Shown piece by piece: positions 12,462 to 45,022 of a DNA stretch of 64,000 nucleotides (position 1 is the stretch's first letter; every line of letters begins with the position of its first letter). The DNA comes from Rhizobium sp. NFR03 (GTDB taxonomy: Bacteria > Pseudomonadota > Alphaproteobacteria > Rhizobiales > Rhizobiaceae), in contig NZ_FOGR01000002.1 in the NCBI RefSeq assembly GCF_900111275.1, positions 310,001 through 374,000 of the forward strand. Direction: 5' to 3'. The notes under the pieces are model-generated. The model saw only the letters and a program-made list of their open reading frames with translations, was not told the DNA's origin and searched no databases. The translations under genes were made by a program, and so were the position numbers.

Positions 12462-12899
12462 CTACTTCGCTGTATCGAGGCGGTCGATCGCCTTGACATT
12501 GTCGGCGGAGGAGCCGTTCGGGTCGAATTCCGAGGCAAGCCAGGTGTCGACGATCGCCTTGGCGAGTTCCGGACCGATAACCCGTGCACCCATGGTGATG
12601 ATCTGGGCATTGTTCGACTTTGCGGCGCGCTCTGCCGAGTACGTGTCATGCGTCAGCGCCGCCCGGATGCCGGGGACCTTGTTGGCTGAAATGCTGACGC
12701 CGATGCCGGTGCCGCAGAAGAGGATGCCGCGCTCGTTGTCGCCATCCACAATGGTCTGTGCAAGCTTCTGCGACAGGTCCGCATAGAAGCCCTGCTGACT
12801 AAGATCCGTCACCTGGATATCATTGCGGGTCGCAAGATGCTTGGCGATGACGTCGAGTAACGGTTTGCCGGCGCTGTCGGCTCCAATGGCGATTTTCAT
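12462..12899 (-). CDS. rpiB: Ribose-5-phosphate isomerase B-like sugar-phosphate isomerase (probable EryI)
   Basis: A 145-residue RpiB/LacAB-family protein starting [17 protein letters not shown]. The phosphate-binding and catalytic text is [24 protein letters not shown], containing the anion-hole GTGIGxS, followed by [14 protein letters not shown]. In Brucella and rhizobia the RpiB paralogue linked to a TPI paralogue and a DeoR regulator is EryI, which converts D-erythrulose-4-phosphate to D-erythrose-4-phosphate. The same linkage here supports that role. It is the last gene of the deoR-tpi-rpiB operon, 35 bases after the TPI gene. Plain ribose-5-phosphate isomerase activity is the alternative. 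Confidence 0.88.
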
Positions 12900-12934
12900 G
12901 GCTGTTTCCTTTCAGGCTTTTGTTGATTTTGGTA

Positions 12935-13702
12935 TCAGAGAGCGGATGAAACGCGGGTCAGGATGTCGAGATAACCTGTGACATCCCAGGCGGAACGGCC
13001 GATGAAGAGGCCGTCGATATGGGGCTTGGCGATCAGCTCCGCGCAGTTGCCGGGATTGACGCTGCCGCCATAGAGAACGGGCACGGAAACGCCGAGACAG
13101 GCCTTCGCCACCTCGGCGATGCGGGCGTGGCGGTCGTCGGCATAATCGGCGGATGCGGGAATGCCGTTGACGCCGATGGCCCAGACGGGCTCGTAGGCGA
13201 GAAGCACCGGCTTTTCCCTGTCCGCACCCTGAAGGCCCGCAAGCGCGCCCTCGACCTGCCGCTTCAAGACGGCATCCGCCTCGCCGGCCTCGCGCTCGGA
13301 CAGCGTCTCACCGATGCAGATCAGCGGCGTCAGGCCGTGACGGACGGCGGCTGCCGTTTTCAGGCCGACGGTCCGGTCGGTCTCGCCGAAGTGCTCGCGC
13401 CGCTCGCTATGGCCGAGCTCCACGAGGTCGAGGCCGCAATCGGTGAGCATCGGCGCGGAAATCTCGCCGGTCCATGCGCCGGCATCGTCCCAATGCATAT
13501 TCTGCGCGCCCACCTTGACGCTCGTGCCGGACAGATGCTGCTTGACCTCCCGCACGGCGGTGAAGGGCGGAATGACGAAGCGCTGGATGCGCGGATCCCG
13601 GGCCGCATCGCTTGCAGACAGCCCCTCGGCGAAGCTCATCGCTTCGCGGAGCGTCTTGTTCATCTTCCAGCTCGTTCCCACCCAGATATCGTTCGTTTTC
13701 AC
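12935..13702 (-). CDS. Triosephosphate isomerase paralogue (probable L-erythrulose-1-phosphate isomerase, EryH)
   Basis: A 255-residue TIM-barrel protein with the catalytic set of TPI: Lys13 in SWKMNK, His98 in ELGHSERR and Glu171 in AYEPVW. Loop 6, almost invariant IGTGKTA in true TPI, reads IGVNGIPA here (residues 176-183). That replacement is the pattern I recall for EryH-type enzymes, which isomerise L-erythrulose-1-phosphate to D-erythrulose-4-phosphate. Its neighbours, an RpiB-like isomerase and a DeoR regulator, match the eryR-eryH-eryI group. It is probably not the housekeeping TPI. Confidence 0.9.
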   Translation of the reverse strand: MKTNDIWVGTSWKMNKTLREAMSFAEGLSASDAARDPRIQRFVIPPFTAVREVKQHLSGTSVKVGAQNMHWDDAGAWTGEISAPMLTDCGLDLVELGHSERREHFGETDRTVGLKTAAAVRHGLTPLICIGETLSEREAGEADAVLKRQVEGALAGLQGADREKPVLLAYEPVWAIGVNGIPASADYADDRHARIAEVAKACLGVSVPVLYGGSVNPGNCAELIAKPHIDGLFIGRSAWDVTGYLDILTRVSSAL

Positions 13703-13732: not shown

Positions 13733-14509
13733 TCAGACCTTGATGATCGATATGCCGGCATCGCTCAGTGCCGTCTCGTGACCGGCATCGATGCGGTCGC
13801 TGGTGACGACGGCGCTGAAACCGTCCAGTCCCGTCAGGAAGTGCAGGGCCGGCTTGCCGAATTTTGCGTGATCCACCATGAGGTAGCTGCGGCTGGCCGA
13901 CCGCATCATCTGCCGCTTGGTCTTCACCACTTCCTGGTCCTGGTGATAGGCCGCCGCACCCTGGATGGCGGAGGAGGAGAGAAAGGCGATGTCTGCCCGC
14001 AGCGACGACAGCGTCTCCTCGGTGACGATGCCGAAGAAACCGTTGAACTTGCGGCTGTACTGGCCCCCGAGCGAGATGACCTCGATGCCGGGGATGGCCG
14101 TGAGCTTGACGATGACGGAGAGGTTATTGGTGATCACCGTCAGAGGCCTGATGGTCGCGATATGATCGGCGAGCCCACCGGCTGTCGAGCCGTCATCGAT
14201 GATGATGATCTGCCCGGGCTCGACCAGCGTCGCGGCATGGGCTGCGAGCTGTCGCTTCTCCTCGGACGCCATCTTTTCGCGGTAGCGAAAGTCGCTTTCG
14301 AACTGCGCGCTTGACTGAATGGACGCTCCGCCATGCACCTTGCGCAAAAGTCCGGCCTGTTCGAGATCGTCGAGATCGCGATGAACGGTCATCTTGCTGA
14401 CGGCAAAGCGTGAGGCAAGATCTTCGACGGACGCAGAACCTGCCTCCATCAGAATATCCATGATCTCCTGCCGCCGATCGTCCGGTTTCAAAGCCACCGA
14501 AATCTCCAT
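13733..14509 (-). CDS. DeoR/GlpR family transcriptional repressor (EryR-like)
   Basis: A 258-residue protein. The start at 14509 (MEISVALKPDDRRQEIM) gives the normal DeoR length; the frame runs open further upstream without family sequence. The N-terminal helix-turn-helix is ASVEDLASRFAVSKMTVHRDLDDLEQAGLLRKVHGGA (given in two blocks: recognition helix VSKMTVHRDLDDLE). The C-terminal effector domain has the sugar-phosphate site IIIDDGSTAGGLADHI and TNNL. It precedes the TPI and RpiB genes by 30 bases and probably represses that operon in response to a sugar phosphate. It diverges from pncB. Confidence 0.9.
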   Translation of the reverse strand: MEISVALKPDDRRQEIMDILMEAGSASVEDLASRFAVSKMTVHRDLDDLEQAGLLRKVHGGASIQSSAQFESDFRYREKMASEEKRQLAAHAATLVEPGQIIIIDDGSTAGGLADHIATIRPLTVITNNLSVIVKLTAIPGIEVISLGGQYSRKFNGFFGIVTEETLSSLRADIAFLSSSAIQGAAAYHQDQEVVKTKRQMMRSASRSYLMVDHAKFGKPALHFLTGLDGFSAVVTSDRIDAGHETALSDAGISIIKV

Positions 14510-14540
14510 CCTCGCGATGATATAAACAGTATCGCGCAAA

Positions 14541-28071: not shown

Positions 28072-30018
28072 TCAGCCGTCGATCCGCAACACGCCGTAGG
28101 GGCCGAGCCGAACGTCGCCGCCGCCAAGCGGTTCGGATCTCAGTGTGCCGACCGCAGCATCGATCATCGTGTCCGCATCGAGCCGATATGCGGAGGCATC
28201 CGGCATGATGCCAAGCGCGGAGAGATCGAGCGTCTGCGATAGGGGTGTCAGATTGACCGCCAGGATCGTCCGGCCGGTATGCCTCTCGGCGCACATCGCA
28301 AGAACCTGATCAGGCCTCTCTGAGGCAATGACTGTCGCTTGTGCACCGGCAAGATCCGCGAGCATGGCGACGGCATGGAAGAGCGGTCGTCGGCCACCTT
28401 CGGGAACGGGTTCGTCAGCACCGGCGATCAGTCCGAACGGGCCTGTCAGTGCCGAGAGGGTCAACTGGTCGAGCCTGGCCGGAGCGACCGAGATCGCATA
28501 GCCGATGGCATAGGCAGCGGCGAAAAGACCGTTCTGGCGCGGGTCGCGGTTTGCCATCGGAATCCGGCTTCCGTCCACATTGTCCATGGTCCGGCTGCCA
28601 TAGGGATTCTGGCGCATGGGGATGGTGGAGGGGCCGACACGATAGCGCCGGTCTTCATAGATCGCCCGCACCGAGCGGGCGATGAAGGGCAGAGCCTCCA
28701 GCGTCTGCATGACGCTGCGATCGTCTGCGGCATGAACGATCGGGTTGGTACAATGGCTGATGAAATCGAGAGACGACGCGGGCACGCGCTTGCGGTTCAA
28801 CTCGGTGAAGTAGCTGAGCATGCCGCCGCCGAGCATCTGCGACGGGAACGCTGCACGCGCTGCTGCATAGATGTCCTCGAGCGGAGGGCAGTCGGGCCAG
28901 GCGCTGCCGGGCGGTGTCGATTGCCGATCGACCGCAGGGGACACCATGACGGCATCCGGCGCGAAACCTGCTTTGTCCATCGCGGCGGCTATCGCCCGGA
29001 GTTCATCGCCAAAGGGTTTCCGGCAGGGCAGCGCGATCTCCAGCGTGGTCGAACCCTCGTGTCTTGCTGCAAGAGCCGCGAAGGCAGCGAACGCGGACTC
29101 ATCATGGCCTGCGAGCGGATCGAAGTGGAAAAGCAGCGCCTGCGCCTGTGGACCGAGACCGGCAGCGAGCATCGCTTGCGTCGCTTCCGCTTCCTCAGGC
29201 GTGACGATGACGCCGATGGGCGGCAGCGGCTGTGCGGGAGCCCCCTGAAGCGTCAGTTTTACAGAGGTGTTTGAGTGTGCCTGACGCGAGCCATCGCGGC
29301 GAGAGGGTCGCCCATCGACGATCTGCAACGTGACCTGTTGTGAAACATCGACGCCTGCCTCGATCCGGTAAGGCCAGGGCAAAGCGAGCGGGCGGACATA
29401 GGTCTTGTAGGAGGCATCCGACCAGTTGCGTTGGTCCTCCATCTCGAACGTGTCGCCCTCCATCCGGCATTCGACGCTCACGCCCGGCAGAGCCTGATGC
29501 GTGATGGCACGCATGTCCTTGAAGGGTTGCCAGGGTTCGATGATGTCCGGCAGGACAGTCGCTTCCACAGTCCCATCGACATGCTCGACGCGGACCGGCG
29601 TCCCCGCCACGCCGACGATCGGGTGGAGGACGCAGAAGCCGCAGCGATTGGTCTCGAACCCCGTCCCGGATGACGCCGTGCCGGAAAAGCGCAGTCGACC
29701 CTGATCGTCACTTTCGATACGCGCCTGGATGTCGAGCCGCGTCTCATCCGGGCCGTGGCATGTCGCGCGGTAGGTGACCGTAAAACCGTCCGAGCGCTGA
29801 TCCACCACGAGATCCTCGATGTCGGGATCATAGGTGCCCCAGTCACGGTCGCGCACGAGGAAAGACACGGCGCGGAGCACCTCCACGCCGTCATATCGGA
29901 TGTTGCGCAGCGCGCCGCCGGAGAGCTCGGCCGAGAGACCGCCGGCCGCAAGGACCAGGCTATCCGGCTCACAGCGAACGGTGCCGGTCAGGCGGAAGGC
30001 GAGCGCGTCATCCGTCAT
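28072..30018 (-). CDS. apnL: D-apionolactone lactonase
   Basis: A 648-residue protein without the usual small-lactonase motifs. I assign it as ApnL from its size, N-terminal beta-rich region (LRNIRYDGVEVLRAVSFLVRD, split over the sheet) and especially its setting: its ATG overlaps the apsD stop by four bases, and the kinase and RuBisCO-like genes of the same pathway lie next. ApnL opens D-apionolactone to D-apionate in the cytoplasm. A repeated GDPRQNG-like substrate loop is not assignable by eye. Without the context I would call it a large uncharacterised sugar-related protein. Confidence 0.78.
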   Translation of the reverse strand: MTDDALAFRLTGTVRCEPDSLVLAAGGLSAELSGGALRNIRYDGVEVLRAVSFLVRDRDWGTYDPDIEDLVVDQRSDGFTVTYRATCHGPDETRLDIQARIESDDQGRLRFSGTASSGTGFETNRCGFCVLHPIVGVAGTPVRVEHVDGTVEATVLPDIIEPWQPFKDMRAITHQALPGVSVECRMEGDTFEMEDQRNWSDASYKTYVRPLALPWPYRIEAGVDVSQQVTLQIVDGRPSRRDGSRQAHSNTSVKLTLQGAPAQPLPPIGVIVTPEEAEATQAMLAAGLGPQAQALLFHFDPLAGHDESAFAAFAALAARHEGSTTLEIALPCRKPFGDELRAIAAAMDKAGFAPDAVMVSPAVDRQSTPPGSAWPDCPPLEDIYAAARAAFPSQMLGGGMLSYFTELNRKRVPASSLDFISHCTNPIVHAADDRSVMQTLEALPFIARSVRAIYEDRRYRVGPSTIPMRQNPYGSRTMDNVDGSRIPMANRDPRQNGLFAAAYAIGYAISVAPARLDQLTLSALTGPFGLIAGADEPVPEGGRRPLFHAVAMLADLAGAQATVIASERPDQVLAMCAERHTGRTILAVNLTPLSQTLDLSALGIMPDASAYRLDADTMIDAAVGTLRSEPLGGGDVRLGPYGVLRIDG

Positions 30019-31055
30019 GCGATCAGCGGTCCGATAGCGACCGGCTTTAGCGTTGCGGCACTTTCATACGCCGCCTCCACCAGTGCAAACGTCTTCAGAT
30101 TGTCGGCACCGGAGGTGGATGTTTCCGCGCCGCTCGCCAGTGTCTCCGTCCAGTGCTGCTGGATGGCAAGGACGCTCTCCTGAATATTGTGCCACGGGCG
30201 GGATGCCCAGGGGAGGAGGGCCGGTGATACGTCTTGGATTTTCGTGCCGGACGCATTGGTGATCTCCAGCCGGTATCCCTGCATCAGCCGGAGTGATCCT
30301 TCGGTTCCGTCCAGCTCGATCAGCGTCTCGGGGAAAGGTTCCACGGACGCCTTGGTGGCATAGCTGACATCCACGACCGAGGTCGCGCCGTTCTCGTGAT
30401 CGAGAAGGATCGTCGCGACGTCCTCCCCCTTTATCGCAGGATTGACGCGCGTTGTGCGGGCGGTGAGTGTCGTGACATCGCCAAGGATGTAGCGGGCGAT
30501 GTCGAGCGTGTGGATACCCAGATCCTCGATGATGAAGCGCGCACCTTCTGCCAGATAGGGCTGGCCCGAGAACACGTCATAGCCGGAGCGGAAGGAGAAG
30601 CGCCCCCAGAACGGCGTACCGATCCCAGTGGCATCGAGCGCCTTTCGTACCGCCTGGATCGGCGTCTGCCAGCGAAAATTCTCGTGGATCATCAGGGGCA
30701 CGCCCGCGGCATTGCAGGCGGCGACCATGGCTTTGGCGTCGCCGAGCGTCGGTGCGAAGGGCTTCTGGCAGATGACGGGAAGACGGTGGGAGGCCGCCAT
30801 CTCCACCAGCGCACGGTGGCTGTTGACGGTGGTGGCGATGTCGACGAAGTCGAAACCACCATCCCTCATCATCTCCGCGGCATCGCTGTAGCGGCGCTCG
30901 ATCCCGAACTGGTCGCCGACGACCCGCAGGCGATCCGGATCGCGGTCGCAGATGGCGGCGATCTCGGCGCCCTCCACATCCTGCCAGGCATGCATCTGGT
31001 TGACAGCGAAGAAGCCGCAACCGATCAGCGCTCCTCGAAAGCTTGGCATGGTCAA
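30015..31055 (-). CDS. apsD: D-apiose dehydrogenase (Gfo/Idh/MocA family)
   Basis: A 346-residue NAD(P)-dependent oxidoreductase. Rossmann start FRGALIGCGFFAVNQMHAW (GxGxxG variant IGCGFF), then VDIATTVNSHRALVEMAA, the EKP-equivalent CQKPFAPTLGDAK, and the catalytic region EDLGIHTLDIARYILGD with the conserved His. ApsD oxidises D-apiose to D-apionolactone, the first step of apiose use; similarity to the R. etli enzyme and linkage to apnL and the kinase/RLP genes support this over a generic inositol-type dehydrogenase. A candidate GntR operator lies 64 bases upstream. Confidence 0.8.
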   Translation of the reverse strand: MTMPSFRGALIGCGFFAVNQMHAWQDVEGAEIAAICDRDPDRLRVVGDQFGIERRYSDAAEMMRDGGFDFVDIATTVNSHRALVEMAASHRLPVICQKPFAPTLGDAKAMVAACNAAGVPLMIHENFRWQTPIQAVRKALDATGIGTPFWGRFSFRSGYDVFSGQPYLAEGARFIIEDLGIHTLDIARYILGDVTTLTARTTRVNPAIKGEDVATILLDHENGATSVVDVSYATKASVEPFPETLIELDGTEGSLRLMQGYRLEITNASGTKIQDVSPALLPWASRPWHNIQESVLAIQQHWTETLASGAETSTSGADNLKTFALVEAAYESAATLKPVAIGPLIA

Positions 31056-31118
31056 TGTCCTTGAGAAAGTGGCATTCAGGATCCGACCGGGACGATCAGG
31101 TCACGTTATGTAAGGCCG

Positions 31119-31141
31119 ACTGGTATAATGAGTCAACCAGT
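31119..31141. promoter_or_regulatory. Candidate GntR operator upstream of apsD-apnL
   Basis: The 15-mer ACTGGTATAATGAGT (31119-31133) is identical to one upstream of oiaX and contains GGTATA, the NanR half-site. Here it is also part of a dyad ACTGGT-N11-ACCAGT (31119-31141). The site overlaps the oiaK stop region and sits 64 bases before the apsD start. Confidence 0.65.
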
Positions 31142-32485
31142 TGATGTCTGGCGCCCGTCGCGTATCTGGGCAAAATATCCATCGCGTCCCACCTGTCCCC
31201 CTTTCAGAGCGATCTGTAGTCCGTTGGTCGGCGCATGCAGCCCGTGAGCTGTGCAGAGCGGCGATCCCGGTGTCTCCGGCAAAGGCAGCAGCGTTGTCAG
31301 CGCATCGACCTTCAAAGCCCCAAGAGCGTGGCTCGACGTGTCGCCGCCCGCGATCACCGCACGGCCGAGACCTTGCTTTTCGATAAGGCTCAGGAGAATC
31401 CGGCCAAGCATCTGGCCCAGCCGATGCCGGCTGCCCGTCACACGGTCGATTTCGCCGCCACGATCGGCCTGCGGGCCGAGGGCCGTGTGCAGGATGACGC
31501 TGCGGCCGGCAGCAAGGCTCGCCTGTCCATCCTGAATGGCCCGGCCGATAACGCTCTCGCCGTCTTCTCCCAGAAGAGCCAGAGGATCGAGCGGCACGCC
31601 GTCGAACCCGTCGGCGGACGTCGCCTGCCGGATCTGCCGCTCGGTGGTCGGGGAAACGCTGCCGGAGACCACAGCGATCCGATCGGCCTTGCCGGGAGAA
31701 GGGAAGGCACGCACGCCCGCGGCATCGCCTTTTTCGCACCACGCCTGAAGGAGTGCATATTCGATGCCGGAGGAGCCCGCCATGAACCGCGAACCGGCCC
31801 CGGCAAGCCGCAGAAGCTGTGCGCCTGCCGCCTTTTGCGTTTCCGCTCCATCGACGTCCAGCATCAGAATGCCCTTGCTGGCAAGGGTCGCGGCGCGTGC
31901 ATCGACCTGCGCATCCGTCAGCATGGTGAGATCGGCAAGCGCAACGGGCAGCCTGGTCTGCAGCCCGAGATGCCGCGTAAGATCCGCCTCCGTCATCGGT
32001 GTCACCGGATGCCGGCTCATGACCGGGTGCCGATCGATGCGAAAGATGTCGCCTTGATAGCCGGCGAACAAATTGCCGAAGGCGGTGTAGCGCTTCAGCT
32101 GCGGCGCGCCGACGACGAGGGGGGCGATACGCTGCTCGAAGACCTGAAGCCCGATTTCGATTGCCCGGCCGATATTGCCGACAGCAGGCGCGGAATCGAA
32201 GGTGGAGCAGACCTTGTAGTGGCAGACGGCTGCCTCGCGCGCTCTTAGCCATGCAAAGATCGGCGCCAGTTCCTGGTTCATCCAGTCCGGGGTTTCGCTG
32301 CGGCTGGTGCCTGCGATGCCGATGGCGCGGCAATGGGCAAAGCGCTGCAGCAGTGCATCGTCGGGAATGCGCAGAAAGAGCACGGTCTCCACGCCATGGG
32401 AGGTCAGCGCCTCCATGACATCGGTCGAGCCGGTGAAATCGTCGCCGTAATAGCTCAGGAGCAGGGGCGCAGCCATGTCAGGCAT
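31133..32485 (-). CDS. oiaK: 3-oxo-isoapionate kinase (DUF1537 four-carbon acid sugar kinase family)
   Basis: A 450-residue two-domain kinase. The N-terminal substrate domain has YYGDDFTGSTDV, the family signature DDxTG; CHYKVCSTFDSAPAVGNIG follows. The C-terminal nucleotide domain has VIAGGDTSSHAL. In D-apiose catabolism OiaK phosphorylates 3-oxo-isoapionate to the 4-phosphate, the substrate of the RuBisCO-like enzyme encoded directly upstream. The start at 32485 overlaps the oiaX stop by eight bases; an in-frame ATG at 32476 is an alternative. Other DUF1537 kinases act on threonate or erythronate, so the specificity rests on the neighbours. Confidence 0.85.
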   Translation of the reverse strand: MPDMAAPLLLSYYGDDFTGSTDVMEALTSHGVETVLFLRIPDDALLQRFAHCRAIGIAGTSRSETPDWMNQELAPIFAWLRAREAAVCHYKVCSTFDSAPAVGNIGRAIEIGLQVFEQRIAPLVVGAPQLKRYTAFGNLFAGYQGDIFRIDRHPVMSRHPVTPMTEADLTRHLGLQTRLPVALADLTMLTDAQVDARAATLASKGILMLDVDGAETQKAAGAQLLRLAGAGSRFMAGSSGIEYALLQAWCEKGDAAGVRAFPSPGKADRIAVVSGSVSPTTERQIRQATSADGFDGVPLDPLALLGEDGESVIGRAIQDGQASLAAGRSVILHTALGPQADRGGEIDRVTGSRHRLGQMLGRILLSLIEKQGLGRAVIAGGDTSSHALGALKVDALTTLLPLPETPGSPLCTAHGLHAPTNGLQIALKGGQVGRDGYFAQIRDGRQTSTG

Positions 32486-33731
32486 CCTTTCCGCCGAAGG
32501 TTTTCAAGGATGCGGCAAGCTCGGGGTGGTCGAGCGCGTAGGTCTCGAGCGGGATGTCGGCGACCGCTGCCTCCCACGCCTGCTGCACGGCATGCACGCC
32601 GGCCGCCGGGCCGCCGGGGTGGCTGACGATGCCGCCGCCGCAGAGGTAGAGCAGATCGGTCGTGCGCCCCGTTCGGCGATAGGTTTCGGGGGCCTGCCCA
32701 CCCCATTGCCCGGAGCCGGCGACCGGAAGCGGGCAATCTGCTGGGGAGAACAGCGGCGTGGAAACGGCCTTGAAGGATTCCACGAAGCTCTCGTCCGGCT
32801 CCCAGTATTTCACGCCGATGCCGTTGATCTGGAACTGATCGACGCCGAGCAGCCGCCAGAACTGCTGCCAGACCTTGAAGTCGAAGCCGATGCCGGGGTG
32901 CCGGGTGAGGACGTCCCAGCCGTTGCGATGCGCATGCAGCACAAGACCGGAGCGCTTGCGCAGGAAGGCCATGCCGCCCATGCCGATCGAGTTGATGTTG
33001 ACGACGGCACAATTGCCGCCGGCCGCCAGCACCATGTCGTGGTTGCGCATCATCTCGTCGGGGTCCGTGTGCGAAATACCAAAGGCATACATGACCTTCT
33101 TGCCGGTCTTCTGCTCGTGATCGAGGATCAGCGGCATGATGGCCGCGACGCGCTCCTTGAGCGGAGAATAGGCCGGGCTCATCAGCTTCTCGTCATCCTT
33201 GATGAAATCGACGCCGGAGCCGATCAGTTCGCCGACCAGTTCTGCCGTTTCCATCGGTCGAAGCCCGAGCGCGGGCTTGACGATGGTGCCGATGATCGGC
33301 CGACCCTCGACACCCGTCAGCCGCCGGCTGCCCGGCATGCCGAACTGGGGGCCGGGATAGGCCGCGCCATATTCCGGCGGTAGCTTGAGATCCACGACGC
33401 GAAGCCCCGTCATCCCCTTGATGGAGAAGATGCCGCCGATGGCGATCGTCATCAGCGCGGAGAGGTCTGTGCCCACGGCATCGAGCGGAAAGGCGATCTC
33501 CACATCGGCCCGGTGGATGGTTCCGTGATCCACGGGCGCCTCCGGCCAACTCGGTGTTTTCGCGGGTTCGAGCGGTCGGATCGCACCGACCCGCGCGGCA
33601 ACCCTGGCCTTCAACGCTTCCGTCTCGCCGGGAACCGGGACGAATGTCCCCGTCGACTGGTCACTGGCGATTTTCGCAGCCATGGCCTCGACGCTGCCTG
33701 TCGTCTCGATGCGATAGGTCACGGTGATCAT
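32478..33731 (-). CDS. oiaX: 3-oxo-isoapionate-4-phosphate decarboxylase (RuBisCO-like protein)
   Basis: A 417-residue RuBisCO-like protein. The frame is open far upstream, but the RuBisCO fold starts at 33731 (MITVTYRIETTG). It keeps GTIVKPALGL (Lys152) and the carbamylation/metal motif DFIKDDE (Lys178, Asp180, Glu181), plus HAHRNG (residues 266-271). The loop 6 lysine needed by true RuBisCO is absent (VAGSGQWGGQ), so CO2 fixation is not expected. OiaX decarboxylates 3-oxo-isoapionate-4-phosphate to L-erythrulose-1-phosphate. It is the first gene of oiaX-oiaK, divergent from the GntR gene. Confidence 0.88.
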   Translation of the reverse strand: MITVTYRIETTGSVEAMAAKIASDQSTGTFVPVPGETEALKARVAARVGAIRPLEPAKTPSWPEAPVDHGTIHRADVEIAFPLDAVGTDLSALMTIAIGGIFSIKGMTGLRVVDLKLPPEYGAAYPGPQFGMPGSRRLTGVEGRPIIGTIVKPALGLRPMETAELVGELIGSGVDFIKDDEKLMSPAYSPLKERVAAIMPLILDHEQKTGKKVMYAFGISHTDPDEMMRNHDMVLAAGGNCAVVNINSIGMGGMAFLRKRSGLVLHAHRNGWDVLTRHPGIGFDFKVWQQFWRLLGVDQFQINGIGVKYWEPDESFVESFKAVSTPLFSPADCPLPVAGSGQWGGQAPETYRRTGRTTDLLYLCGGGIVSHPGGPAAGVHAVQQAWEAAVADIPLETYALDHPELAASLKTFGGKDA

Positions 33732-33783
33732 CGGCTCGTCCTCCCGTCTCGAACGATCTGCTCCGTTAGATCGCCATTGATGA

Positions 33784-33803
33784 ACTGGTATAATGAGTAT
33801 AAC
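33784..33803. promoter_or_regulatory. Candidate GntR operator between oiaX and the regulator gene
   Basis: The 15-mer ACTGGTATAATGAGT recurs at 33784-33798; with the next bases it forms an imperfect dyad GGTATA-ATGAG-TATAAC (33787-33803). It is 53 bases before the oiaX start, in the same orientation as the apsD site, and about 150 bases before the GntR start. Confidence 0.65.
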
Positions 33804-33947
33804 AATGAAGCAAGCCTCGGTCCGCTGAAAATGCGCGGGCCCGGAGACCGTTGCGACGGCGCCGAAAGCGATGCATATGAGCGTTTCCCTTTTCCAAGCG
33901 CGTTGCGGCATGCGAAGATGCAGGATCGAACAACCGTCCGGAATCTC

Positions 33948-34661
33948 ATGAACCAGCCGACCGAACCCATCACGCGCCGAAAACTGTCCGACGAGGTCTT
34001 TTCCCGCCTGCAGGCGATGATCACGTCCGGCGAGTTGAACCCCGGCGACGAGATGCCCTCCGAGCGGGAGCTGATGGAGCGTTTCGGCGTCGGCCGGCCC
34101 GCGATCCGGGAGGCGATGCAGGCGCTGGCCAATATGGGCCTCGTCGTCATCTCGCATGGCGAGCGTGCCCGTGTGCTGGAACTTACCGCCCGGTCGATCC
34201 TGCGTCAGGTGGATACGACGGCGCAGATGATGCTCGCGAAATCCGCCGACACGCTGGAGCATCTGAAGAGCGCCCGCATCTTCTTCGAGCGAGGCATGGC
34301 ACGGGAAGCGGCAGTCAAGGCAACGGAAGGCGATATCGCGGACCTCAGGGCGATCCTCGTCCGCCAGCAGGCAGCGCTGGATAATGCGGCGGCCTTTATC
34401 GCCGCCGACATGGAGTTTCACAGCCGCATCGCCCGTATCTCCGGCAATCCGATCTATATTGCCGTCAGCGAGGCCATGCTGGCCTGGTTGCGCGGTTACC
34501 ACACGCATATGCTGATCTGGACCGGCAAGGAAACCGTGACGCTCTCCGAGCACCGGTCCATCATCGACTGCATCGTCGCCCACGACGCCGATGCCACGGA
34601 ACAGGCCATGCTGCGCCACCTCGAACGCTCCCGCGCGCTCTACACGTCGAAGGACATGTAA
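33948..34661 (+). CDS. GntR family regulator, FCD subfamily (probable apiose-pathway regulator)
   Basis: A 237-residue protein starting at ATG 33948 (MNQPTEPITRRKLSDEVF); an in-frame ATG at 33918 is possible. The N-terminal winged helix is PGDEMPSERELMERFGVGRP followed by AIREAMQALANMGLV. The FCD ligand domain shows the metal/effector residues Asp-x3-His in ADMEFHSRIARISGN and His in EHRSIIDCIV. It is divergent from oiaX and is the natural candidate regulator of the apiose operons. The effector is probably an intermediate of the pathway. Confidence 0.9.
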   Translation: MNQPTEPITRRKLSDEVFSRLQAMITSGELNPGDEMPSERELMERFGVGRPAIREAMQALANMGLVVISHGERARVLELTARSILRQVDTTAQMMLAKSADTLEHLKSARIFFERGMAREAAVKATEGDIADLRAILVRQQAALDNAAAFIAADMEFHSRIARISGNPIYIAVSEAMLAWLRGYHTHMLIWTGKETVTLSEHRSIIDCIVAHDADATEQAMLRHLERSRALYTSKDM

Positions 34662-34833
34662 CCGCCCTCGTTCCATGTTCGTCAGGTCTTGCCGAATTCG
34701 GGCTAAAAACGATTCCGGTTTGCAGGAATATGCAGTAGAACCCGCGCTCGCGAAGAATCTCCTGCCCTTCCGTTTCGAAGCCCAGGGTCCGGGAACCGCA
34801 GCATCAAGACGACGGGTACAGGGAGTGGCGGAC

Positions 34834-36054
34834 ATGGACGCAAGCGAAATCGCACGCATCTCCGCATGGCTGACGACACAGGGCCTCAAGGGCTCCGACG
34901 AGATGGAGATCATGCGCGGCTTCTGCGAGCATCTGCGCGATGCCGGGCTGCCGCTCGACAGGGGGCTTGCACTCATCGACACCCTCCATCCGGTCTATGA
35001 AGGGCGCGCTTTCCAGTGGGACAGCCGCGAGCCGGGCAAGGGCATGTTCGAATACGGTCCGACGAACGAGGGCGTTTCGGAGGAGAACTGGAAGCGATCG
35101 CCGTTCTATCACCTGCGTGAAACCAACGGCAACGAACTGCGCCGCCGGATCGGCTTTGGAGATCCCACCGATTTCTATGCGCTGGACACCTTGCTGGCGG
35201 CGGGTCATCGCGACTACATCGCCATGATCCACCGGTTCTCGCCGGACACGCATATCGGCGACATGGACTGCTTCTATTCGCACTGGACGACCGCGGACGA
35301 GGGCGGCTTCTCGGATCAGGGTGTCGATGCGCTGCGCTCACTGGTTCCCGTCCTCGCGCTTGCCATCAAGGCAGGATCGCTCAATCGCGTGACGCGCACG
35401 ATTGCAGAAGTCTATCTCGGCGAAGATGCTGCAAGCCATGTGCTGGAAGGCCGTATCACCCGGGGGAAGGCCGAGCGCATATCCGCCGTGCTCTGGTTTT
35501 CCGATTTGCAGAACTACACCCGTATCACCGAGAGTCTCGCGCCGGACGAGATCATTCCGTTTCTCAACGACTATGCCGATGCCGTCATCACCTCGATCCA
35601 CGAGGCCGGCGGAAACGTGCTGAAGCTGATCGGCGACGGCACGCTCGCGATCTTCAAGGCGGAAGAGCGAGAGGATGCCTGTCGCCGTGCACTGGATGCC
35701 GAGCGACGTCTGCGGGGCAAGCTCGCCGACCTCAACGCACGTCGCGCCATGGAAGGCCGTCCGACCACGGAAGTCTATCTCGGACTGCACATCGGGGATG
35801 TTTTCTATGGCAATATCGGCAGCGCCGATCGCCTCGATTTCACGGTCATCGGGCCCGCTGTCAACGAGGTCAGCCGCATTGCGTCCCTCTGCCGCTTCGT
35901 CGATCGCACGGTCGTCATGTCTTCCCCCTTCGTGGCCGCCGCACCGCCGCCCGGCGACAGGGAGGTGGTGTCCATCGGCCGCTACGCGCTGCGGGGCGTG
36001 AAGCTCGCGCAGGAGCTTTTCACGCTCATGCCGGTGCCGGAAGCGGACGCCTGA
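34834..36054 (+). CDS. Class III adenylate/guanylate cyclase
   Basis: A 406-residue soluble protein; ATG 34834 is preceded by GGGAG. The first ~200 residues form an uncharacterised domain seen in many rhizobial cyclases (HPVYEGRAFQWDSREPG, DMDCFYSHWTTADEGGFSD). The catalytic domain has the metal Asp in VLWFSDLQNYT, the second metal Asp in KLIGDGTLAIF, GLHIGDVFYGNIGSADRLDFTV (split) and GPAVNEVSRIASL, where the usual NxxxR transition-state pair is NEVSR. All key positions are present, so it should make a cyclic nucleotide; cAMP is more likely than cGMP but not proven. It follows the GntR gene but is separated by 172 bases. Confidence 0.9.
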   Translation: MDASEIARISAWLTTQGLKGSDEMEIMRGFCEHLRDAGLPLDRGLALIDTLHPVYEGRAFQWDSREPGKGMFEYGPTNEGVSEENWKRSPFYHLRETNGNELRRRIGFGDPTDFYALDTLLAAGHRDYIAMIHRFSPDTHIGDMDCFYSHWTTADEGGFSDQGVDALRSLVPVLALAIKAGSLNRVTRTIAEVYLGEDAASHVLEGRITRGKAERISAVLWFSDLQNYTRITESLAPDEIIPFLNDYADAVITSIHEAGGNVLKLIGDGTLAIFKAEEREDACRRALDAERRLRGKLADLNARRAMEGRPTTEVYLGLHIGDVFYGNIGSADRLDFTVIGPAVNEVSRIASLCRFVDRTVVMSSPFVAAAPPPGDREVVSIGRYALRGVKLAQELFTLMPVPEADA

Positions 36055-36183: not shown

Positions 36184-37245
36184 ATGAAGATGAACAGGCT
36201 TGCCGAGCAGGTCCGCCAGACAGGCTCCGTGCCGCTCTCCTGGGCGGGTTCGACGATGGCGATGGATTACCTCAACATCGGCGATGCTCTGAGCCCCGTC
36301 ATGGTGGCGCTCCTGAGCGGCCGGCCGGTCCATCGGGTCCCCTCCCGCTCGAAGACCATGCGCATGGCCTGCGTCGGCACGATCGCGCATGGTTTCGCCG
36401 ATGGCGAAGCCTGGTTCTGGGGCACGGGATCCTCGCGCTGGACCAATCCGTCTGCGGCGAAGGACGAGCTGATCCCGTTCCGGCCCTCGGCCGAATCGAC
36501 GTTCCATGTCACGGCGACGCGCGGTCCCCTGTCGGAAGCCCTGATCACCGGCGTGGCCGAGGGGTCGGTCGGGGTTTATGGCGATCCCGTCTGGCTGCTG
36601 CCGCGGTTCTATGCGCCGCCCGCCGAGAAGACGTGGAAACTCGGTGTCATCGTCCACTTGTCGGAACTGTCCGATCGCGATCCCGAAGCACATCTCAAGG
36701 AAACTCTGCTGCGTTATAGAATACCGGAAGCGTTCGCGCCGCATATCCGCCTGATCAACACGGTCACATCGATCGAGATGAATGCGATGAAGGCGCGGAT
36801 CGATGATATCCTTGCCTGCGAACGCATCGTCTCCACCAGCCTGCACGGCATGGTGTTTGCCGAAAGCTACAACATTCCCTGCCTGCACTTCGCGACCCAT
36901 GGCCCGGTGAAGGGGCTGCACACGCGAACGCTGGATGGCACCTGCGATCTCGACGCCCGCGTTGTCGACCTGTATCGTGGCCTCGGCCTCACCGAACTGC
37001 CGGTCTATGCCTGGCCGCATGCGGAGCCGACCGACTGGGACGATCTCATCTCGGCCATCGACCGCGCCTGGACGCCGAAGGCATTCGACGCAGAGGCCCT
37101 GATCGCGGCCTTCCCGCTCGATGTGGAGCCTCTGGAAGCCCGCCCGGGCGAAACCATCTGGGATCACCCGGTGCTTCAGGGACTGGTGCTGCAGCACGAC
37201 GTGAAGGAACTCAACCTGGCGGACAGGCTGCGCAACAAGGCGTGA
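36184..37245 (+). CDS. Polysaccharide pyruvyl transferase family protein (paralogue 1)
   Basis: A 353-residue protein of the pyruvyltransferase superfamily that adds ketal pyruvate to surface sugars from PEP. Motifs shared with the two paralogues at 42871 and 43967: NIGDALSPVMVALLSG, CVGTIAH, FWGTG, GDPVWLLPRFY, LGVIVHLSEL and STSLHGMVFAESYNIPC (the SLHG core). It is alone on the plus strand at the edge of the capsule locus, facing the leftward biosynthesis operon. Acceptor sugar unknown. Confidence 0.87.
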   Translation: MKMNRLAEQVRQTGSVPLSWAGSTMAMDYLNIGDALSPVMVALLSGRPVHRVPSRSKTMRMACVGTIAHGFADGEAWFWGTGSSRWTNPSAAKDELIPFRPSAESTFHVTATRGPLSEALITGVAEGSVGVYGDPVWLLPRFYAPPAEKTWKLGVIVHLSELSDRDPEAHLKETLLRYRIPEAFAPHIRLINTVTSIEMNAMKARIDDILACERIVSTSLHGMVFAESYNIPCLHFATHGPVKGLHTRTLDGTCDLDARVVDLYRGLGLTELPVYAWPHAEPTDWDDLISAIDRAWTPKAFDAEALIAAFPLDVEPLEARPGETIWDHPVLQGLVLQHDVKELNLADRLRNKA

Positions 37246-42870: not shown

Positions 42871-43965
42871 TTGTCTCAAGAACTTATTGATATTGTTAAA
42901 GCGGAGGGCAGTATTCCGCTCTCTTGGGTGACCACGACCGGTAAGGAATCCTATCTCAACCTCGGTGATGCCCTGTCGGCCGTTATCGTTTCGATGATGT
43001 CGGGTCTACCGGTGTATCACATGGCTGCCAAATCCCAAGCCACGCGATTGGCGGCGGTCGGAACGATCGGTCACATGTTTGCGGGCGGTGACGTCTCGTT
43101 CTGGGGAACGGGCACGTCTCCCAACCTCAATCCGCATCAGGGCGACAAGCCGAAGATTGCCTATCAGACGCCTGCGGATACCCGGATCACGACCTATGCG
43201 ACGCGCGGCCCCTTCAGTCGCCGCCTTCTGGCGCCTGATGCGGAAGGGGCTGGCGTGTTCGGCGATCCGCTCTGGCTGCTGCCGCGTTTTCACACCGCAC
43301 CGGTCGAAAAGACCTGCGAACTCGGCGTTATCCTGCATCTGTCCGAGCTGGAGGACCGCGCCTACGAGGCGCACCCCAAGCCCGAATCGCTGCGCCACCA
43401 GGTATCGGACGCCGACCGCTCGAGCGTTCGCCTGATCAATACGGTGACCCCGATATCCGTTGGCGCGCTGCGCGAACGGCTCGACGAGATTCTGTCCTGC
43501 AAGCGTATCGTTTCCACCAGCCTCCACGGCATGGTCTTCGCGGAATCCTACGGCATTCCCTGTCTTTACTTTTCTCCCCGCGCGGCACAGGCCGGGCTCG
43601 GGAAGATCGATCTGAAGGAGGAGGAGGGGCTCGACCTCCGCTTTGTCGATCTTTATCAGGGGATCGGCCAGGAAAGTCTCGATGTCTGGTACCAGCCGCG
43701 CCGCGCGGCAACGGACTGGGATGCACTGATTGGGGCGATCGACGATATCTGGTACCCCAAGACGTTTACCGGAGAGGACCTGATCGACGCCTTTCCCTTG
43801 CCCCGGAATATGCTCGACAAGGGCCCGACGGGCAGCGCCTTCGATCATCCTCTGATTGCTTCGCTTCCCATGGAGCGTCATCGGCCGCCAACCGAAGGCG
43901 TGCCGCCATCGCGCGGCTGGCTTTCGAAACTGGCGGCCCATGCCCGTGGCCTGAGCGGAGTTTGA
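42871..43965 (+). CDS. Polysaccharide pyruvyl transferase family protein (paralogue 2)
   Basis: A 364-residue paralogue of the gene at 36184, with NLGDALSAVIVSMMSG, VGTIGHMF, FWGTG, GDPLWLLPRFH, LGVILHLSEL and STSLHGMVFAESYGIPC. The start appears to be TTG at 42871, since no ATG/GTG is in frame nearby and GGTGGA lies just upstream; that start is uncertain. It is followed with one base gap by paralogue 3, giving a tandem pair divergent from the glycosyltransferase operon. Confidence 0.85.
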   Translation: MSQELIDIVKAEGSIPLSWVTTTGKESYLNLGDALSAVIVSMMSGLPVYHMAAKSQATRLAAVGTIGHMFAGGDVSFWGTGTSPNLNPHQGDKPKIAYQTPADTRITTYATRGPFSRRLLAPDAEGAGVFGDPLWLLPRFHTAPVEKTCELGVILHLSELEDRAYEAHPKPESLRHQVSDADRSSVRLINTVTPISVGALRERLDEILSCKRIVSTSLHGMVFAESYGIPCLYFSPRAAQAGLGKIDLKEEEGLDLRFVDLYQGIGQESLDVWYQPRRAATDWDALIGAIDDIWYPKTFTGEDLIDAFPLPRNMLDKGPTGSAFDHPLIASLPMERHRPPTEGVPPSRGWLSKLAAHARGLSGV

Positions 43966-43966
43966 C

Positions 43967-45022
43967 GTGCCCCTGAAAGCAGCAAAAAGACTTTTCCGTC
44001 GTTCCGTCTCACCCGACAGATCGCCAGCTTCCGGCGCCTTGGTGACAAGCGACCGCGGCGTGGCCGAAGCCGTGCGTCTCTCCTGGGTCTGGACGACGGA
44101 TCGGCATCCCGATGCCAATCTGGGCGATGCCCTGAGCGCGGTGGTCGTTTCCGTCATGTCCGGCCTGCGTATCGAACCGGCGGCCTTCGATCAGTCGAAG
44201 GAAAGACTGGCAGCCGTCGGCACCATAGGGCACGCCCAGCAGGGCGCGCGCGTGCATCTTTGGGGCACGGGGTTCGACCTGAACCGCGGACCCTCCGGCG
44301 CGCTTGCGCCTTACGCCGTGCCGCCGACAACGGAACTCGTCGTGCACGCGGTTCGCGGGCGCCAAACGGCTGCCGGTCTGCGGGCTCTGGGTCTGGATGT
44401 GCCGAATGTCTTTGGCGACCCCGTCTGGTTTCTGCCGCGTATCTTTCCCTTTCCAGATCTTGCGAAGCGGCATGAGTTGGGCGTCATCGTCCATATCTCG
44501 GAGCTTGATGAGGCGACGGCGGCTGCGACCGTCAAGGCTCAACTGACACGGTATGCCATTCCGCCGGAGCTGGCCGACGACATTACGATCATCAATACGT
44601 ACACGGATGCGGGCATGGAAGGTTTCGAACGCAAGGTTCGCGAGATTGCCGCCTGCCGCCGGATTCTCTCCACCAGTCTTCACGGTTTGGTCATAGCTGA
44701 AACCTACAACATTCCTTGCGCCTGGTTCTCGACCGGTCGCGGAGAGGCTGCAGCCTTGCCTTTCGACGGCCCGCAGCCGATCGATCATCGCATGATCGAC
44801 TTTTATGGCGGTGCCGATCGCGAGACCGTGCTGAGCTATCTTCAGCCTTTGATGGAACCAACCGACTGGGCCGACGCCATCGGCTTTATTGATCGAAACT
44901 GGAAGGGACTGACCTATACCGGAGAGGCTTTGTTCAAGGCGTTTCCGCTTCGCAAAGCCGTCAAATTCAAGGATTCCGTGTGGACCTGTCCGCCCGAGAT
45001 CCTCAAGTCCAACCGATACTGA
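43967..45022 (+). CDS. Polysaccharide pyruvyl transferase family protein (paralogue 3)
   Basis: A 351-residue paralogue with GTG start one base after paralogue 2. It has an extra ~35-residue basic N-terminal extension (LKAAKRLFRRSVSPDRS) absent from the others. Core motifs are NLGDALSAVVVSVMSG, AVGTIGH, LWGTGFD, GDPVWFLPRIF, LGVIVHISEL and STSLHGLVIAETYNIPC. More diverged than paralogues 1 and 2 from each other, suggesting an older duplication and possibly a different acceptor. Confidence 0.85.
   Translation: MPLKAAKRLFRRSVSPDRSPASGALVTSDRGVAEAVRLSWVWTTDRHPDANLGDALSAVVVSVMSGLRIEPAAFDQSKERLAAVGTIGHAQQGARVHLWGTGFDLNRGPSGALAPYAVPPTTELVVHAVRGRQTAAGLRALGLDVPNVFGDPVWFLPRIFPFPDLAKRHELGVIVHISELDEATAAATVKAQLTRYAIPPELADDITIINTYTDAGMEGFERKVREIAACRRILSTSLHGLVIAETYNIPCAWFSTGRGEAAALPFDGPQPIDHRMIDFYGGADRETVLSYLQPLMEPTDWADAIGFIDRNWKGLTYTGEALFKAFPLRKAVKFKDSVWTCPPEILKSNRY

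Follow-up and report, generated by a model that had tools for sequence, protein, structure and literature searches.

D-apiose is reportedly catabolised by an oxidative pathway that Carter et al. described in Nat Chem Biol in 2018 and that involves apsD, apnL, apnO, oiaK and oiaX. RuBisCO-like enzymes of this pathway are cited in PMC6302742; according to PMC11747546, Rhodobacteraceae strain LCG007 grows on D-apiose and carries a D-apiose cluster with lactonase, dehydrogenase, oxidoisomerase, kinase and decarboxylase. Here we report on a cluster of this kind in Rhizobium sp. NFR03, situated within a 64,000-nucleotide stretch of contig NZ_FOGR01000002.1 (hereafter the window), and on the whereabouts of two components absent from it: the oxidoisomerase ApnO and a sugar importer. 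Our data make it highly probable that the D-apiose catabolic regulon is split over two places in the genome – the other enzymes and the regulator in the window, ApnO and the importer on a second contig (C10) – and that the latter block was relocated within the genus. The pathway itself is already known; the novelty lies in its division over two loci, with one sequence element on both halves, and in the series of arrangements within a single genus. No split apiose cluster was described in the titles and abstract openings of the open-access literature that we searched.

The cluster in the window comprises five genes (Table 1), all of them open, present and in the order claimed by an initial annotation of this DNA, whose assignments – apsD, apnL, oiaK, oiaX and a GntR regulator – stand. 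ApnL and OiaX exceed curated NCBIfam cut-offs, and the regulator carries Pfam GntR and FCD domains and scores 349.3 bits against the cut-off of 260 of model NF003011. Two open reading frames (ORFs) were longer than the genes within them: 32478-34982 is too long for oiaX and 33513-34661 too long for the regulator. ApsD matched no specific NCBIfam model above its cut-off in the profile search, and a structure search at E 0.1 returned no related solved structure for ApnL.

The same annotation described the cluster as lacking its oxidoisomerase and transporter, which is true of the site at 28072-34661 and untrue of the genome. The interval between oiaK and apsD is without apnO, and when the window was searched by tblastn with the five proteins of the C10 block the sole match was that of the ATPase (28%) to an ATP-binding cassette (ABC) ATPase near 61 kb. 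The source genome (G000; 5.4 Mb, a draft in 34 contigs, 99.99% complete) contains a single match to Pfam PGDH_C (E up to 0.001), which we take to be the domain marking ApnO, and this match lies on C10, outside the window. There apnO is followed, in order, by genes for a ribose-type periplasmic binding protein, a DUF2291 lipoprotein, a sugar ABC ATPase and a permease. The genome search that the annotation had proposed thus yields a single ApnO-like gene; a sugar ABC importer follows it directly, and ahead of it stands a 15-bp element to which we return below. Its suggestion that the missing genes lie elsewhere is backed by the C10 block; its other suggestion, that a different enzyme takes their place, is unsupported, and non-orthologous replacement of ApnO was discarded as a candidate, given that the genome holds a close homologue of the in-cluster apnO.

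For the C10 gene we infer the name ApnO from its Pfam family and from cluster context. The protein has a median identity of 84% to the in-cluster apnO of 78 other clusters, and its identity to that of a congener (G005) is 90%; the median identities of the block proteins to related loci span 55-87%. In the annotated records among the 25 of 251 plasmid matches listed, genes of this sort go by 'phosphogluconate dehydrogenase C-terminal domain-containing protein' or by some equally general name. Encoding all enzymes in one cluster is the usual arrangement, not a catalytic need; in the source genome they are spread over two loci, each on its own contig, and judged by predicted gene content the D-apiose pathway is complete.

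Related loci were fetched by means of ApnL, and the counts given here refer to the best 80 of at least 559 confirmed. ApnL, ApsD and OiaK are matched in all 80 (ApsD with a median identity of 78%), OiaX in 79, ApnO in 78 and the GntR regulator in 62. Five genes of the C10 type stand contiguously and in the same order just upstream of apsD-apnL in 69 of the 80, among them one locus (L015) with an extra ORF between the block and apsD-apnL. The block is directly preceded by oiaK in 34 of these 69; in the rest, isomerase genes or other ORFs intervene, or the order is permuted, with oiaX-oiaK after apnL. Nine loci have apnO with no ABC genes between it and apsD, and two are interrupted by contig ends. 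The window cluster, then, is the common cluster without its contiguous middle block, which stands complete on C10.

Relocation of the importer as a wider habit was also considered. Eight clusters outside the genus (L018, L035, L039, L057, L059, L062, L064 and L082) contain apnO but no ABC importer genes; in each of their genomes a search at E up to 1e-80 brought up a single match, a binding protein at 49-50% identity. With nothing closer than this the idea was dropped; in these eight the importer seems to have been lost or replaced, not moved.

Evidence on the origin of the split came from a sample of seven genomes of the genus (G000 to G006, the source genome included), in all of which ApnL and PGDH_C are found. 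G005 has an undivided ten-gene cluster with the flanks seen in the window (a cyclase-domain gene and a gamma-glutamyltransferase). In G000, G001, G002, G004 and G006 – five of the seven – oiaK adjoins apsD directly and the block occupies a common second site, flanked by a 185-aa gene on one side and an EamA transporter gene on the other (oiaX of G004 was misread by the gene caller). G003 (Rhizobium sp. Leaf371) carries the importer solely at the second site, and apnO at each of the two. Both apnO copies look scrambled, with repeated overlapping segments (L095:8500-10040 and L101:7596-8539) and single Ns at the second site, probably owing to assembly damage around two near-identical copies, and we base little on them; their promoter stretches hardly differ from one another. 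G003 looks intermediate; it may be a true intermediate, or its in-cluster apnO may have been regained by recombination. As to replicons, RepC is unmatched on the 3.67-Mb contig that carries the core of G006 and matched on the 1.17-Mb contig that carries its block; the block contig of G003 likewise has a RepC match, and the block contigs of G000, G001, G002 and G004 have none.

Trees were drawn from the 71 of 86 taxa with all eight proteins, concatenated as core (OiaX, OiaK, ApsD, ApnL) and block (ApnO, binding protein, ATPase, permease). Both have the form (G005,(G003,other five)). Support is 1.0 in both trees for the genus and for the six genomes beside G005, and 0.91 (core) and 0.84 (block) for the position of G003 outside the other five; branch lengths show less divergence within the genus among the block proteins than among the core proteins. 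Because core and block trees place G005 beside the other six alike, they favour relocation within this lineage rather than transfer from outside.

A second line of evidence is the 15-bp element. The 15-mer ACTCATTATACCAGT occurs in exact form three times, and no more, in the source genome – before oiaX, at the oiaK-apsD junction and before apnO on C10, where it starts 52 nucleotides (nt) ahead of the gene – and each proposed transcription unit (oiaX-oiaK, apsD-apnL and the C10 block) is preceded by one. Every one of the six genomes with a split or intermediate arrangement likewise has three exact copies and G005 has two, and the control, the pattern read backwards, gave none in the seven genomes. 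Across the 80 loci there are 161 sites with up to two mismatches; 20 shuffled motifs gave 0-5 apiece. The element lies within 300 nt upstream of 63 of the 64 testable oiaX genes (those with at least 300 nt of upstream sequence present) and of 61 of the 78 testable apnO genes. Its weight rests on the exact genome-wide counts, single-sequence counts with mismatches being near chance: for a 12-base core, at most two mismatches allowed, two sites were found in the window against 1.19 expected, which is not beyond chance. A one-mismatch site at G000:C15:536539, tried as a further regulon member, was rejected; it falls inside a predicted 454-aa gene.

NanR-type GntR/FCD regulators recognise GGTATA-repeat sites. 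The regulator in the window exceeds the cut-off of the NanR subfamily model and the element has GGTATA on its reverse strand; what differs is that the putative site is here attached to apiose genes. Position and this resemblance to NanR sites suggest that the element is the operator of the GntR regulator.

The copy at the oiaK-apsD junction is telling. A 29-nt stretch that includes it shares 86% identity with the sequence ahead of apnO on C10. In undivided G005 (L097), as in the undivided cluster L028, the element stands before oiaX and apnO with 0-1 mismatch, and the gap between permease and apsD in G005 is 4 nt long and contains no site. Since that gap has none, the junction copy most likely derives from the apnO promoter, as a scar of the absent block.

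Taking substrates and reaction steps from family names and the known pathway, we propose that D-apiose would be imported by the ribose-type ABC importer of C10 with its DUF2291 lipoprotein and oxidised to the lactone by ApsD, and that ApnL would open the lactone to give D-apionate. ApnO from C10 would then convert D-apionate to 3-oxo-isoapionate, OiaK would phosphorylate, decarboxylation by OiaX would yield L-erythrulose 1-phosphate, and the isomerases encoded at 12462-13702 would lead on to D-erythrose 4-phosphate. As to induction, the 15-bp element, identical at all three places, is probably what puts oiaX-oiaK, apsD-apnL and the C10 block under one GntR regulator. The events probably ran from an ancestral ten-gene cluster to relocation of the contiguous middle block inside the genus, during which the apnO promoter region with its element would have landed on both halves, apsD-apnL thereby keeping a copy.

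Several points weigh against this account. The ApnO-like protein of C10 matched no NCBIfam ApnO model. OiaK scores 438.8 bits against the cut-off of 700 of NF042436, its best model nonetheless; because OiaK of three other clusters (L028, L074 and L097, at 477.3, 467.4 and 458.5 bits) likewise stays under 700, the shortfall seems to be a trait of a subgroup. Of the testable apnO genes, 17 of 78 are without the element in the 300 nt upstream: in 12 of these, from Mesorhizobium loci, it follows closely on apnO and precedes the binding-protein gene, and in five it is in neither place. Scans for a consensus promoter at two of the three elements, that of C10 apnO and that of the oiaK-apsD junction, found none. 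The G003 apnO entry in the block tree is the in-cluster copy, seemingly damaged, and the halves of G000, though on different contigs, could belong to one replicon. Finally, an empty second site was not found: second-site synteny is not kept in G005, where, in the 19.5 kb around the EamA homologue (74%), no other C10 neighbour was matched except the permease, at 43%.

A non-homologous enzyme in place of ApnO, with the C10 block serving another sugar, would fit the apnO-free gap and the failure to match an NCBIfam ApnO model; the identity of the C10 protein to the in-cluster apnO of G005 and of the other clusters, next to importer genes that are those of the same clusters and with the same element, makes it very improbable. 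We regard it as unlikely that the block was acquired horizontally and the original middle block lost independently. The non-syntenic second site in G005 and the lower divergence of the block proteins within the genus speak for this, whereas the block tree sets the six genomes beside the in-cluster block of G005, with the genus at full support and the topology of the core tree. That the split is an artefact of assembly, a thought invited by a draft of 34 contigs, is scarcely credible: both junctions recur in five of the seven genomes, including G006 with its halves on two large contigs, and they lie inside contigs in the loci read. Our preferred explanation remains relocation of the block within the genus. 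A further step would be to see in the genus a graded series of operon splitting – from undivided G005 through G003 to the five split genomes – in which a duplicated apnO promoter/operator keeps common GntR control across a chromosome and a repABC-type replicon; on this step we find ourselves evenly balanced between acceptance and doubt.

Beyond the catabolic genes, 26 relatives have a gene for a CUT1-type sugar-binding protein near the cluster, with the element (1-2 mismatches) within 200 nt upstream in 18 of the 26 (for example L028:13571-18324); the L028 enzyme matching Apiosidase PF13204 has a homologue at every one of the 26 loci. Apioside uptake and cleavage probably belong to the regulon of these Rhizobium. 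In the genus sample, PF13204 has matches in five of the seven genomes, the profile search finding none in G000 or G006.

Candidates for the downstream steps lie elsewhere in the window (Table 1). An isomerase pair of this type, one triose-phosphate isomerase (TIM)-like and one RpiB-like, takes L-erythrulose 1-phosphate to D-erythrose 4-phosphate. For the RpiB-like gene, homologues with 40% identity or more are present at 24 of the 80 apiose loci. The TIM gene, the lower-scoring of two in the genome, has homologues in 22; since the NCBIfam model over cut-off that fits it best is the one for ordinary triose-phosphate isomerase, we only infer the LerI/EryH function. Homologues of the adjacent DeoR-family regulator occur in six loci. 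Clusters of some relatives (L016:2454-3700 and L022:2439-3679) contain TIM-like and RpiB-like isomerase genes between oiaK and apnO.

Table 1. Positions of the apiose-related features (window coordinates unless prefixed C10)
Feature	Position	Strand	Evidence or remark
apnL, D-apionate lactonase (predicted)	28072-30018	-	NF049900, 956.9 bits (cut-off 750: passed)
apsD, Gfo/Idh/MocA D-apiose dehydrogenase (predicted)	30015-31049	-	Pfam domains; matched in 80 of 80 loci
15-bp element, copy 2	31119-31133	-	oiaK-apsD junction; exact match
oiaK, SBD_N/NBD_C (DUF1537-type) 3-oxo-isoapionate kinase (predicted)	31133-32485	-	Top model NF042436
oiaX, RuBisCO-like 3-oxo-isoapionate-4-phosphate decarboxylase (predicted)	32478-33731	-	NF042437, 775.4 bits (cut-off 700: passed)
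15-bp element, copy 1	33784-33798	-	GntR-oiaX intergenic region; exact match
GntR/FCD-family regulator, NanR-like subfamily model	~33948-34661	+	Divergent from oiaX; start codon predicted
ApnO-like PGDH_C dehydrogenase, 275 aa	C10:125772-126599		Pfam PGDH_C; head of block C10:125772-130997
RpiB-like D-erythrulose-4-phosphate isomerase (DerI/EryI), probable last step	12462-12899	-	NF051858, 256.5 bits (cut-off 240: passed)
Triose-phosphate-isomerase homologue, probable L-erythrulose-1-phosphate isomerase (LerI/EryH)	12935-13702	-	Pfam TIM
DeoR-family regulator beside the two isomerase genes	13733-14527 (start approximate)	-	NCBIfam DeoR-type models, none over cut-off

Elsewhere in the window (36184-37245 and 42928-45022) three predicted proteins have a common 'N(L/I)GDALS' near their start and are perhaps paralogues.

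More generally, a step that appears to be missing from a pathway at one site can be an effect of arrangement, one that is solved by genome-wide searches for the family and for the shared control element. If our account is true, the genus offers a natural series for how operons divide while regulation persists, and the element predicts further regulon members in relatives, such as the apiosidase-family enzyme with its own importer.

Measured against the oxidative D-apiose pathway, the genes described here belong to the same enzyme families, two of them over curated cut-offs, and the gene set is that of the relatives' undivided clusters; here, however, apnO and the ABC importer stand at a second locus. 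LCG007, compared by description alone, has the same enzyme set and is described as having one cluster (PMC11747546). With the undivided clusters of G005 (L097) and of Rhizobium johnstonii 3841 pRL12 (L028) all ten genes and the 15-bp element are held in common, and with G005 the flanks of the window as well; in both of these the block still lies between oiaK and apsD.

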